64,000 nt of DNA. It comes from Fontimonas thermophila (GTDB taxonomy: Bacteria > Pseudomonadota > Gammaproteobacteria > Nevskiales > Nevskiaceae). The position numbers and the translations under genes are program-made. Position 1 is the stretch's first letter; every line of letters starts with the position of its first letter. The stretch covers positions 143,124 through 207,123 of the forward strand of contig NZ_FOOC01000004.1 of the NCBI RefSeq assembly GCF_900113085.1. The letters are read 5' to 3'. Below, piece after piece: positions 7,800 to 14,006 of the stretch. The notes under the pieces are model-generated. The model made no database searches. It saw only the letters and a program-made list of their open reading frames with translations, and was not told the origin of the DNA.

Positions 7800-9632
7800 T
7801 TAGAACATCTCCGTCGATTTGACGTCGATTTTTTGTGGTTGCACCGCGTTGCGCGAGGGAATCCACTCGCCGGTGATCATCTGGTCGTAAGACATCCCGG
7901 GGCCGACCATCGGATAGACCGAGGCCATCGGATCGATGATCACCTCGAGGAAGGCCGGGCCCTTGAATTCGATGAATTCCCGGATCACCCGCGCAAGATC
8001 CTCGCGCTTGTCGACCCGGCGCGCGAACTGATAGCCGTCGGCCTCGGCGGCCTTGACGAAGTCCTTACGGTGCAGGCTCTTGTCGGAGCCGGCATAGCGG
8101 CTGTCGAAGAACAGGCGCTGCCACTGTTTGACCATGCCGTCACCGAAGTTGTTGAGCACGACGATCTTCACCGGCAGGTTGTAGGTGGTCACCGTCTCCA
8201 GCTCGCCGAGGTTCATGCGGATCGAGGCGTCGCCATCGATGTCGATGACGATCTTATCCGGGTGCGCGAACTGGGCGCCGATCGCCGCCGGCAGACCGAA
8301 GCCCATCGTGCCCATCGATCCGGAAGTGAGCCACAGGCGCGGATGCTTGAAGTCGAAATATTGCGCGGCCCACATCTGGTGTTGGCCAACGCCCGTGGCA
8401 ACGATGGCCTCACCCTGGGTCCACTTGTTGATTTCCTCGATCACCGCGTGCGGCTGGATCAGCGTGCCGCCGCGTTCGTAGTTCATCGCGTACGTTTTCT
8501 TGAGCTGGGCGATGTGCGCATGCCATTCGGCGTAATCGGGCTTGAATCCCTGCGCCAGCGCGTATTCCTGCAGCGCGCAGAGCGCCGGCGCCAGTTCGCC
8601 GACGTGGTGCCAGTGCACGCGCTTGACCTTGTTGATCTCCGACGGGTCGATGTCCAGGTGCGCGATCCATTTGGCGCTGCGTGCAAACTTGGCCGGCACG
8701 CCGGCGACACGGTCGTCGAAGCGCGCGCCGACGGCGATCAGAAAATCGCAGTCGTCGGTGGCGTAGTTGGCGTAGGCCGTGCCGTGCATGCCGAGCATCT
8801 TCAGACACAAGGGATCGGTGGTGTCATAGCAGCCGATGCCCATCAATGTCGTCGTCACCGGAATCCCGAACGTCCGCGAAAACTCACGCAGTGCCGCCGA
8901 GGCATTGCCGTGGATGACGCCGCCGCCGGCATAGATCAGTGGCCGTCGGGCCTGGCGCAGCATGTCGTAGAAACGCGCTGCCGCATCGGTGCCGATGCGG
9001 TTGTTCTGCACGGCTTTCAGACGCGCACGGTAGCCGGGGATGGACAGCACGCCCTCACCGACGAACGGGCCGGTCCAGTTCTGCACATCCTTGGGGATGT
9101 CGATGACGACCGGGCCGGGGCGGCCGGTGCGGGCAATCTCGAAGGCCGTGCGCACGGTCGCCTCGAGTTTTCGCGGGTCGGTGACCAGGAACACGTGCTT
9201 GGCCGCGGCACCCATGATCGAGCTGATCGGCGCTTCCTGAAAGGCATCCGTGCCGACGGCGGAGGTCGGAACCTGGCCGCAGATCACCACCATCGGGATG
9301 GAATCAGCCATGCAATCGCGCACTGGTGTGACCGTGTTGGTCGCACCGGGGCCGCTCGTCACCAGACAGACACCGACCTTGCCGGAGGCCCGTGCATAGC
9401 CGGCGGCCATGAAGCCTGCGGCCTGCTCGTTGGCCGGCACGATCAGCGGCATTTTCTCGTGGTGTTCGGCGTTGAAACGAAAGATCGCGTCGTAGGTGGG
9501 CAGGATGGCGCCGCCGGAATACCCGAAGACGACATCGACACCCTCGTCGGCCAGAATCTGGACGACGATCTCCGCCCCGCTCATGGTTTTGCCGGCGAGG
9601 GGATGACGGGTGGCGGAAGCAGCGGCGTTCAT
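7800..9632 (-). CDS. ilvB: acetolactate synthase large (catalytic) subunit
   Basis: This is the thiamine-diphosphate- and FAD-dependent enzyme that condenses pyruvate (or pyruvate with 2-oxobutyrate), the first common step of valine, leucine and isoleucine synthesis. In the 610-residue product the N-terminal TPP domain has VFGYSGGAILPTYDAI and the catalytic Glu in ANEQAAGFMAAGYAR. The FAD-binding middle domain follows, and the C-terminal domain has the metal/TPP motif GDASIRMNLGELETV with NNFGDGMVKQWQ. It is read leftwards, opposite to ilvH, its regulatory partner, with only 102 bases between start codons. The usual arrangement is a co-directional ilvB-ilvH pair. Confidence 0.95.
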   Translation of the reverse strand: MNAAASATRHPLAGKTMSGAEIVVQILADEGVDVVFGYSGGAILPTYDAIFRFNAEHHEKMPLIVPANEQAAGFMAAGYARASGKVGVCLVTSGPGATNTVTPVRDCMADSIPMVVICGQVPTSAVGTDAFQEAPISSIMGAAAKHVFLVTDPRKLEATVRTAFEIARTGRPGPVVIDIPKDVQNWTGPFVGEGVLSIPGYRARLKAVQNNRIGTDAAARFYDMLRQARRPLIYAGGGVIHGNASAALREFSRTFGIPVTTTLMGIGCYDTTDPLCLKMLGMHGTAYANYATDDCDFLIAVGARFDDRVAGVPAKFARSAKWIAHLDIDPSEINKVKRVHWHHVGELAPALCALQEYALAQGFKPDYAEWHAHIAQLKKTYAMNYERGGTLIQPHAVIEEINKWTQGEAIVATGVGQHQMWAAQYFDFKHPRLWLTSGSMGTMGFGLPAAIGAQFAHPDKIVIDIDGDASIRMNLGELETVTTYNLPVKIVVLNNFGDGMVKQWQRLFFDSRYAGSDKSLHRKDFVKAAEADGYQFARRVDKREDLARVIREFIEFKGPAFLEVIIDPMASVYPMVGPGMSYDQMITGEWIPSRNAVQPQKIDVKSTEMF

Positions 9633-9734: not shown

Positions 9735-11305
<1,571 letters not shown>

Positions 11306-11411: not shown

Positions 11412-12185
11412 ATGCAGGATCCGCCTGTCAGCTCCGTTGTAAAGCCCCGCCGCAAGGGTATCTATCTACTCCCCAATCTGTTTACGACGGGAACCTTGTT
11501 CGGTGGCTTTTACGCCATCGTCGCGGCGATGGGTGGGCATTTCGAGGCGGCGGCCGCCGGCATTCTCGCCGCGATGGTCGCCGACGGCCTCGATGGCCGC
11601 ATCGCCCGGCTGACCCATACGCAGAGCGATTTCGGCAAGGAATACGACTCGCTCTGCGACATGGTCGCTTTTGGCGTCGCCTCGGCAATCGTCGTCTATG
11701 CGTTCAGCCTGCATCATTTCTCCGAATACCGGTGGCTCGGCGGCAAACTCGGCTGGGCGATGGCCTTTCTGTTCGCCGCCTGTGCGGCGCTGCGCCTGGC
11801 CCGCTTCAACGTGCTGACGGCGATCGCCGGCAGCAACAAGGATTTCTTCGGTCTGCCGAGTCCATCGGCTGCCGCAACGGTGGCCTTCTTCGTCTGGGCC
11901 GCGTATAGCTGGGGGCTGGATGGCAAAGCCGTGCTGATCCCGGCATCGATTCTGACCGTCGGCTGTGCGCTGTTGATGGTCAGCAACATCCGCTACAACA
12001 GCTTCAAGCAGTTCAAGCTGTCGCGCCGCAGACCGTTCATTTACATGGTGCTGTTCATCAGCCTGTTCGCCCTGATCCTGATCAACCCACCCAACGTTCT
12101 GTTCTTCGGTTTTCTTGGCTATACGCTGTCAGGGCCGACGATCATGCTCTGGCGCCGGTACCGGCGGATACCGGAAGCGGCGTAG
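11412..12185 (+). CDS. pssA: CDP-diacylglycerol--serine O-phosphatidyltransferase
   Basis: This integral membrane enzyme makes phosphatidylserine, the precursor of phosphatidylethanolamine. The 257-residue product has the CDP-alcohol phosphotransferase signature DGLDGRIAR followed by FGKEYDSLCD, which carries the metal-binding aspartates, and several hydrophobic helices (for example LLPNLFTTGTLFGGFYAIVA, and the C-terminal FIYMVLFISLFALILI). It is the type II (Bacillus-like) PssA, not the soluble Escherichia coli form. ATG 11412 has no ribosome-binding site. The gene sits between ilvC and leuA although it has no link to amino acid synthesis. Confidence 0.92.
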   Translation: MQDPPVSSVVKPRRKGIYLLPNLFTTGTLFGGFYAIVAAMGGHFEAAAAGILAAMVADGLDGRIARLTHTQSDFGKEYDSLCDMVAFGVASAIVVYAFSLHHFSEYRWLGGKLGWAMAFLFAACAALRLARFNVLTAIAGSNKDFFGLPSPSAAATVAFFVWAAYSWGLDGKAVLIPASILTVGCALLMVSNIRYNSFKQFKLSRRRPFIYMVLFISLFALILINPPNVLFFGFLGYTLSGPTIMLWRRYRRIPEAA

Positions 12186-12191
12186 GCGGCA

Positions 12192-12221
12192 TTGGCAGTC
12201 GTCAGCACCATCGTCTATAGT
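12192..12221 (+). promoter_or_regulatory. strong sigma-70-type promoter of the leucine leader and leuA
   Basis: TTGGCA (12192-12197, 5 of 6 consensus) and TATAGT (12216-12221, 5 of 6) are separated by 18 bases. The predicted transcription start, 7-8 bases after the -10 box, coincides with the ATG of the leucine-rich leader peptide at 12229. Confidence 0.6.
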
Positions 12222-12228
12222 TGACGCC

Positions 12229-12324
12229 ATGCGCGTATCCATTGGCCAGCTTTTTGTCCCTGCGGCGGATGTCTTCCGCCCGCTGGCGCTCGCGCTTCTT
12301 TCTGGTCTGCTCCTTCTGCCGTAA
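12229..12324 (+). CDS. leucine-rich leader peptide of leuA (attenuation peptide)
   Basis: A 31-codon ORF upstream of leuA ends in LALALLSGLLLLP followed by TAA: 8 of its last 13 residues are leucine, read by CTG, CTC and CTT codons. This is the hallmark of a ribosome-mediated attenuator, in which stalling at leucine codons during leucine shortage changes downstream RNA folding. There is no Shine-Dalgarno sequence, and the predicted transcript start coincides with the ATG, so the peptide may be translated from a leaderless end. The stop codon lies in the loop of a 7-pair hairpin. I did not find a T-tract terminator, so the way expression is switched off is unresolved. Confidence 0.72.
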   Translation: MRVSIGQLFVPAADVFRPLALALLSGLLLLP

Positions 12325-12403
12325 GGCAGAATCCCACGAGCGCGCCGTGCACGGGGCCGAATACCGTGCAAGCCCCCAACCCCGATCTCTCCTGACCCAG
12401 GAG
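12314..12403 (+). promoter_or_regulatory. leuA leader RNA with three hairpins
   Basis: Three perfect dyads follow the leucine codons: TTCTGCC/GGCAGAA (12314-12331) with a GTAA (GNRA-type) loop, TGCACGG/CCGTGCA (12348-12370) with a 9-base loop, and CTCCTG/CAGGAG (12389-12403) with a 3-base loop. The leucine-codon segment GCGCTC (12286-12291) can instead pair with GAGCGC (12338-12343), giving a possible alternative fold. No run of T follows any hairpin, so Rho or translational control is as likely as intrinsic termination. Confidence 0.5.
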
Positions 12404-12452
12404 CCTCACCTGCCGATCCCGAGCGGGTGATGCTCCCGATCCGAGCAACGCC

Positions 12453-14006
12453 ATGAAAGACACTTTGATCATTTTCGACACCACCTTGCGCGACGGCGAG
12501 CAGAGCCCCGGCGCGTCGATGACGCAGGACGAGAAAGTGCGTATCGCCAAGGCGCTGGAGCGCATGAAGGTCGATGTCATCGAGGCCGGCTTTGCGGCGG
12601 CGAGCAACGGTGACTTTGCCGCGGTGCGCGCCGTGGCACAGTGCATCACCGAGAGCGTCGTCTGCTCGCTGGCGCGCGCCAACGCTGCGGACATCACCAA
12701 GGCGGCGGAGGCCATCGCGCCGGCACCGCGCAAGCGCATCCACACCTTCATCGCGACCAGCCCCATCCACATGGAGAAGAAGCTGCGCATGCACCCCGAT
12801 CAGGTCGTGCAGGCAGCCGTGGGTGCGGTCAAGCTCGCCCGCACGTTCACCGATGACGTCGAGTTTTCCTGCGAGGACGCCGGACGTTCGGAGCCGGACT
12901 TCCTGTGCCGCATCATCGAAGCGGCGATCGACGCCGGTGCACGCACGATCAATATCCCCGACACCGTCGGGTACACCTTGCCGCACATGTTCGGTGAGCT
13001 GATCCGTTCGCTGATCGAGCGCATTCCCAACGCGCACAAGGCTGTGTTTTCGGTGCACTGCCACAACGACCTGGGGCTGGCGGTCGCCAATTCGCTGGCG
13101 GCCGCGCTCAACGGTGCGCGCCAGATCGAGTGCACAATCAACGGTCTGGGCGAGCGCGCCGGCAATGCCGCACTCGAAGAAATCGTCATGGCGATCCGCA
13201 CGCGCGCAGACGTCTTCCCTTTTGATACGCGCATCGACACGACACAAATCGTGCCGACCTCGCGACTGGTATCCGGCATCACCGGTTTTCCGGTGCAGCC
13301 GAACAAGGCCATCGTCGGCGCCAATGCGTTTGCCCATGAATCGGGCATCCATCAGGACGGCGTGCTCAAGCACCGCCAGACCTACGAGATCATGCGCGCC
13401 GAAGACGTCGGCTGGAGCGCGAACCGGCTGGTGCTGGGCAAACACTCCGGGCGGGCTGCATTCCGCGCGCGCCTGGAGGAACTGGGCTATACGTTCAAGT
13501 CCGACGCCGAACTGGCCGAGGCGTTTGCACGCTTCAAGGATCTGGCGGACAAAAAGCACGAGATCTTCGACGAGGATCTGCAGGCGCTGGTCAGTGAAAC
13601 CCAGCACGCCCAGGCACACGAGCGGGTGCAGCTACTGGAACTGGAGGCGATGAGCAAGACCGGCGTGCGGCCGGTCGCGCGCGTGGCGCTGTTGGTCGAC
13701 GGCCAGCGGTGTGAGGCGCAGGCTCAGGGTGACGGTCCGGTCGATGCCGTGTTCGCTGCAATCGAAAATATCGTGAAGACTGGTGCCAAGCTCCTGCTGT
13801 TCTCGGTAAACAACATCACCACCGGGACCGATGCGCAAGGTGAGGTGACCGTGCGCCTGGCCAGGGAAGGGCGTACCGTCAACGGACAAGGTGCCGATAC
13901 CGACATCGTCATCGCCTCGGCCAAGGCCTATGTCAACGCCGTGAACCGGCTCAGCGCCGCATCGGTGTTGCGCGCGCATCCGCAGTTCGAGAGCGCCGGA
14001 CCTTAA
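12453..14006 (+). CDS. leuA: 2-isopropylmalate synthase
   Basis: LeuA condenses acetyl-CoA with 2-oxoisovalerate, the committed step to leucine. The 517-residue product has the DRE-TIM barrel metal-binding motif [16 protein letters not shown] at the N-terminus, [16 protein letters not shown], and the C-terminal LeuA dimer domain that binds leucine for feedback inhibition (about residues 395-510). The length matches the long bacterial form. The start is preceded only by a weak GAG. Expression probably depends on the leucine leader peptide 129 bases upstream. It lies next to pssA and two genes from ilvC. Confidence 0.96.

Follow-up and report, generated by a model that had tools for sequence, protein, structure and literature searches.

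The usual textbook picture of leucine control in Gammaproteobacteria is termination attenuation of the leuL type, and the leuL leader peptide of Escherichia coli is preceded by a Shine-Dalgarno (SD) sequence. Another plan is that of the LEU element of actinobacterial leuA genes, which the passages of PMC1262725 devoted to it describe as a peptide with Leu codons, a pseudoknot, no terminator, and a base stem formed by the Leu codons and the leuA SD sequence. The LeuL1 leader of Streptomyces lividans was reported to be leaderless (PMC8079986), and mutations of the Leu codons in a comparable leuA leader of Streptomyces coelicolor contradicted the attenuation prediction, as cited in PMC1262725.

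The window analysed here is a 64,000 nt stretch of the Fontimonas thermophila genome, in which ilvH, ilvC, pssA and leuA all lie on the + strand as annotated by gene matches, and the element described below fills the gap between the end of pssA (12185) and the ATG of leuA (12453). The gene for the acetolactate synthase large subunit (7800-9632, - strand) is divergent from ilvH and ilvC (9735-11305, + strand), with a gap of about 100 nt. The features of the element and its downstream gene are as follows.

12192..12221, + strand: sigma70-like promoter TTGGCA-N18-TATAGT, from which transcription would begin on the leader ATG or beside it, with the same geometry in relatives
12229..12324, + strand: leader peptide ORF of 31 codons, with 8 Leu within the last 14-16 codons and without SD sequence
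12297..12312, + strand: run of Leu codons, 5′ half of a proposed base stem with its partner at 12443-12460 (MFE fold, own-versus-cross tests)
12314..12331, + strand: hairpin P1 of 7 bp, TTCTGCC-GTAA-GGCAGAA, with the stop codon inside the GUAA loop (sequence, fold)
12344..12370, + strand: H-type pseudoknot, S1 GCC 12344-12346/GGC 12355-12357 and S2 TGCACGG 12348-12354/CCGTGCA 12364-12370
12389..12403, + strand: third hairpin, CTCCTG-ACC-CAGGAG (sequence, window only)
12443..12460, + strand: start region of leuA, proposed 3′ strand of the base stem, covering a weak GAG together with most of the start codon (ATG, 12453) (MFE fold)
12453..14006, + strand: leuA, 2-isopropylmalate synthase, 517 aa (NF002087.0, 892.6 bits over a cut-off of 729)

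The Leu-rich ORF of 31 codons claimed in the first-pass annotation was indeed present in the sequence; the C-terminus of its peptide reads MRVSIGQLFVPAADVFRPLALALLSGLLLLP-stop, and GLLLLP-stop closes the ORF. The peptide had no match in Pfam and the leader region none in Rfam at gathering scores, one tRNA being the sole match in the whole window, and the leader is in this sense an element that Rfam does not flag there. Two candidates from a permissive Rfam scan (MH_s10 and L31-Firmicutes) were rejected, as they were on the other strand and far below threshold.

The upstream regions of leuA relatives displayed the same plan as the window. A leader caller, which required an ATG-started ORF of 14-62 codons with 5 or more Leu among its final 16 codons and a stem at the ORF end, found a leader before leuA1 in 80/109 loci (61/83 families), and its controls gave 2, 1, 0, 0 and 1 of 109 (five dinucleotide shuffles) and 0 (reverse complements). 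The caller undercounts, as four of its 29 misses (L030, L031, L160 and L226) show a leader by eye, and no leader was seen by eye in three others (L148, L151 and L152). Since the leader is conserved across relatives, the possibility of a chance ORF was rejected. Dozens of families share the Leu-rich peptide, the hairpin around the stop codon, a promoter spacing of the leaderless kind and a structure after it; whether Leu codons and stems are conserved in relatives had been set beforehand as a test of the leu attenuator reading, and this comparative evidence from leader, stems and promoter spacing speaks for that reading, and suggests a widespread leucine switch across many families of the same class.

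A pattern scan of the genome collection with the ORF-end pattern CGNCTNCTGCCNTARGGCAG gave 92 stretches, 80 of which were listed as loci, and 42 among these 80 had a same-strand leuA within 400 nt. Among the remaining loci listed, leuA was further off in one (L051), one was located at a contig edge (L076), and the others were without leuA in the locus; as a rough estimate the pattern loci without leuA, mostly from other groups, were taken as chance matches. The LLP or RLLP end of many leaders could point to nascent-peptide arrest, in which the C-terminus (often RLLP-stop) would itself stall the ribosome in a TnaC-like manner in response to free leucine. However, the Arg is missing in the window and in two other leaders (L004 and L017), other ends such as LPR, LPSGN and LRR exist, the hairpin arm CTGCC is enough to account for the Pro, and the 42 pattern loci end in RLLP because the scan required it, and we regard peptide arrest as very improbable indeed.

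The -35 box TTGGCA (12192-12197) and the -10 box TATAGT (12216-12221) form the only sigma70-like promoter in 12150-12480 (mean of 0.0 in shuffles), with the -10 box ending 7 nt before the leader ATG. Both this promoter and the lack of an SD sequence before the ATG, as initially proposed, are real in the window, and the element thus combines a promoter geometry starting at the ATG with the absence of an SD sequence, as in leaderless mRNAs. In a survey using one leader per family and the first in-frame ATG (61 families), an SD-like motif was present ahead of the leader ATG in 3/61 and ahead of leuA in 56/61. A strong -10 box whose end lies 5-10 nt ahead of the first ATG was detected in 27/61 families, versus 2.45 per six-nt window elsewhere, and the distance between strong -10 boxes and the ATG was mostly 6 or 7 nt, so the promoter spacing suited to a leaderless start that had been noted in the window does recur in relatives. 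When any in-frame ATG was allowed the count was 28/61, with 0 to 9 at seven control spacings (the 9 being at 26-31 nt), and a -35 box matching at least 5/6 positions was found in 19/29 families with such a -10 box, with 1 at a control offset. In the 34/61 families without a strong -10 box at this distance from the first ATG, transcription may depend on a weaker box or begin elsewhere. Judged by this geometry, the leuA leader transcript apparently starts at the leader ATG and is read without an SD sequence.

The RNA of 12228-12470 folded with -95.5 kcal/mol, compared to a shuffle mean of -79.4 (z -3.22, 2/200 shuffles as good). The first-pass annotation had placed three hairpins after the ORF, and all three are present, the first having a loop that contains the stop codon, while the relatives indicate that the second is stem 2 of a pseudoknot. 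P1 recurs in relatives, where it contains the stop codon or adjoins it; a stem at the ORF end is part of the leader caller. The leaders of Nevskiaceae and those preceding the distant leuA type discussed below (leuA2) contain an H-type pseudoknot with S1 GCC/GGC and S2 CACGG/CCGTG, the latter varying, for example to GCGCGG/CCGCGC. A strict pseudoknot scan (S2 of at least 4 bp, score of at least 20) recovered 26/26 leuA2 leaders versus 7.7% of shuffles, and only 10/61 leuA1 families versus 7.0% of shuffles. Many other families hold CCTGGCGAGG at the pseudoknot position, exactly in 22/61 and with at most one mismatch in 24 (mononucleotide shuffles 0.4); the exact motif is shortly followed by ACGC in 17/22 and by ACGT in 4/22, and one leader (L144) has the matched double change CCTGACGAGG...ACGTCA. 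Outside Nevskiales the pseudoknot is hardly testable because S2 is only about 3 bp, and the case for it there is CCTGGCGAGG with ACGC or ACGT.

Covariation was assessed in two alignments. In the first (A3), consisting of 24 families chosen by the CCTGGCGAGG motif out of 61, the covariation of S1 was 0.259 versus 0.099 shuffled (0/500 as high, slid versions at most 0.056), and neither the number of pairs changed on both sides (2 versus 2.0) nor that of further pair types (8 versus 7.0) was above the shuffles. The second (A4) included 38 of 45 candidates with a pseudoknot score of at least 22, after omission of 7 near-duplicates or odd ones, and gave a whole-pseudoknot covariation of 0.370 versus 0.147 shuffled (slid versions at most 0.098) in a set chosen for good pseudoknots; its pair counts lean towards structure because members were picked by pseudoknot score. 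A model (R1) built from A3, with the window excluded, identified the window element (12296-12390) as the best match of its own genome (E 3.1e-4). At E of at most 1e-7 there were 43 matches in 185 genomes, many of them training loci, with 42 located ahead of leuA and the other being an orphan leader in one genome (G168). The orphan (C96, L265:350-600) is a second well-kept leader copy with promoter-like sequence and no adjoining leuA, and the true leuA leader of G168 is elsewhere (L266). At a loose threshold of 0.05 a match was found in 179/185 genomes and weak matches are therefore meaningless; in 17 R1-matched places that were checked, leuA1 was adjoining in 9 and absent in 8.

The conservation of CCTGGCGAGG including its loop letters, with ACGC or ACGT behind nearly every exact copy, could also indicate that the pseudoknot binds leucine, a protein or another factor, with a minor part for the peptide, and PMC1262725 put forward a regulatory protein in its section on the actinobacterial element. 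Nevskiaceae, among them the window, have other loop letters, and the Leu-rich ORF end is common to leaders with and without CCTGGCGAGG, which makes this explanation very unlikely in our opinion.

The MFE fold of the window joins the Leu codons (12297-12312) and the leuA start (12443-12460) by 15 pairs. The Leu run (-45 to -3 relative to the stop codon) was matched with leuA -20 to +3 by their best helix without gaps, and own pairs were compared with pairs from different loci. For 65 leaders the own pairs gave z 3.36 (p 0.0004), with controls at z 2.18, 1.15, 0.93, -1.14 and -0.58, the highest of which was the control using the upstream ORF. When 35 window pairs were scanned in 60 families, the predicted cell was the highest (z 3.41, next z 2.91). 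The result was replicated with 44 families outside the 65-leader test that do not resemble its loci (z 3.51, p 0.0003, 11 controls at most 1.75); an earlier version with 46 families (z 3.62) held one locus identical and one similar to the 65-leader set, and both were dropped. In a stricter set of 35 families, none resembling the 104 earlier leaders, the target reached z 3.02 (p 0.0034) with controls up to 2.73 and 2.06, and as the control at z 2.73 was again the upstream ORF, our confidence in the mechanism was lowered. A partition-function version gave 12.5 expected pairs for own combinations versus 9.7-11.4 in 12 swaps, with at least 4 expected pairs in 54/57 versus 46.2 for swaps. Own pairs thus exceed cross pairs, though modestly, and the cross-pair values are high because Leu codons and SD sequences are complementary by composition. 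In the window alone 5/12 swapped start regions pair equally well, and the base stem is not exceptional there.

Three further analyses of pairing were set aside. An RNAduplex own-versus-cross test was not specific (target p 0.031, controls p 0.016-0.044) and is not counted as support. An accessibility model had the leuA start more open when stalled in 48/65 leaders, but was likewise not specific, as shuffled leaders equalled the mean of the released state. Finally, a downstream partner for the right arm of P1 (CTGCC) was found in 12/65 versus 7.1 in shuffles (shuffle maximum 12) with a helix test z of -0.58, and was dropped.

No terminator-like site was detected in the window scan of 12150-12480, in agreement with the earlier remark that a T-tract terminator is lacking before leuA, and U-tracts before leuA were present in 10/65 leaders versus 7.1 in shuffles (shuffle maximum 10), which is near shuffle level and no clear excess. 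Three leaders (L155, L078 and L036) have T7-T8 tracts after the structured domain with no adjoining hairpin. A Leu-rich leader peptide preceding leuA is also what a classical leuL attenuator, which ends transcription at an intrinsic terminator, would show, as known in Shewanella from the relevant part of PMC2659441, but the absence of a terminator-like site in the window and the U-tract counts had already disfavoured this explanation, which we consider extremely improbable.

The chief rival to translational attenuation is Rho-dependent termination, in which the ribosome would leave at the stop codon and Rho would load on the C-rich stretch past the pseudoknot and terminate transcription before leuA, with a ribosome stalled near the stop codon blocking or refolding the Rho site. 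It would fit with the missing intrinsic terminator in the window, with an excess of C over G at +45 to +75 from the stop codon in 45/61 leaders (C 0.33, G 0.20), and with the tnaC precedent mentioned in PMC1262725. However, the C bias is not special to this stretch, as C also exceeds G within the ORF (58/65 at -90 to -40), and the complementarity of the Leu run and the leuA start is left unexplained; we consider the Rho-dependent route rather unlikely. The first-pass annotation had suggested Rho-dependent or translational control instead of the classical mechanism, and the non-classical part of this suggestion is upheld by the U-tract counts, while the translational branch is favoured because the Leu run complements the leuA start region.

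We therefore propose, on the basis of the sequence comparisons, a leaderless ribosome-read leucine switch that would act mainly on leuA translation, a form of translational attenuation that we hold to be likelier than each of its rivals but on which we are evenly divided. Transcription would start at the ATG of the Leu-rich ORF, which is then read by a ribosome without an SD sequence. With ample Leu-tRNA, the ribosome would finish the peptide and depart at the stop codon in P1, after which P1 and the pseudoknot may form and the freed Leu run pair with the leuA start, closing it. With scarce Leu-tRNA, the ribosome would stall on the Leu codons and block the base stem, leaving the leuA start open for translation. 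P1 and the pseudoknot could function as a compact domain by which both strands of the base stem are drawn close to each other. Confidence in this mechanism is tempered by the S. coelicolor mutants and by the families that lack a strong -10 box near the first ATG, both of which we counted against it.

The leader precedes two types of leuA. Among 10 genus mates a close LeuA1 (88%) was found in only one (G004), and the best matches in the other nine were 28-37% identical. We searched 20 loci of the distant type (leuA2) for the leader, which was identified by script in 19/20, with a Leu-poor version seen by eye in the other (L139), and pssA-like sequence was located upstream in 19/20 (none in L140). 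The gene order in G004 (contig C22) is leader, leuA2 and leuA1, with leuA1 lacking its own leader (L132, L003), compared with leader and leuA1 only in the window, which looks like a loss of leuA2 from under the leader. It seems that the leader remained at the pssA-linked locus while the gene behind it was exchanged, and finding one leader at this locus in front of two distant types of leuA suggests that the switch lasts longer than the gene under its control.

If the proposed switch is correct, many other gammaproteobacterial families use a leaderless peptide with the leuA start hidden by Leu codons, a plan also described in Actinobacteria, and this would be a widespread case of leaderless translation kept for a regulatory purpose. 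In a wider version, leaderless leucine switches would be class-wide in Gammaproteobacteria and follow the actinobacterial LEU plan without common descent, the leaderlessness would be mechanistic, as the ribosome loads on the emerging RNA and the pioneer round of translation decides between Leu codons and leuA start, and the pseudoknot with its near-invariant loop would provide a second input by a ligand or protein; we consider this combination unlikely.

No earlier account of leaderless leuA leaders in Gammaproteobacteria was found in the open-licence PMC literature. Leaderless attenuator peptides as such are already known, as the sections of PMC7298713 and PMC10117765 on Sinorhizobium meliloti trpL describe an attenuator peptide on an RNA starting at the ATG, with Ribo-seq; trpL differs from the window element in responding to tryptophan, in preceding trpE, in its transcription attenuation and in belonging to the Alphaproteobacteria. 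The LeuL peptides of Campylobacter jejuni and relatives are similar in length (20-35 aa), in their C-terminal Leu codons and in their position before leuABCD, but have a ribosome binding site, an RNA reported to end shortly past the stop codon and a termination model, in the portion of PMC3847290 dealing with them. The leuL leaders of Enterobacteria and Shewanella likewise encode a Leu-rich peptide before leuA, but with a terminator and antiterminator in Shewanella (PMC2659441, as described there for leuL), whereas the window has no terminator.

Four actinobacterial leaders (L171-L174) were compared directly, and display an LLLSCRGE peptide end and, by eye, a long CCGCGGCGAGG/CCTCGCCGCGG hairpin, without the stop-codon hairpin CTGCC-N-GGCAG. 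Homology was not apparent with R1, whose best score on these four leaders was 4.7 bits (E 0.53). Right after their Leu run they have a stretch similar to GGCGAGG or GACGAGG, and its likeness to the gammaproteobacterial CCTGGCGAGG could stem from chance, convergence or descent. The actinobacterial LEU element is nevertheless the closest known system, and by analogy the window element would work like it: both are located upstream of leuA with a run of Leu codons, an apparently leaderless start and no terminator (PMC1262725 and PMC8079986, in their accounts of these leaders), and the pseudoknot and base stem published for the actinobacterial element (PMC1262725) may have their counterparts in the covarying pseudoknot and the proposed base stem described here.
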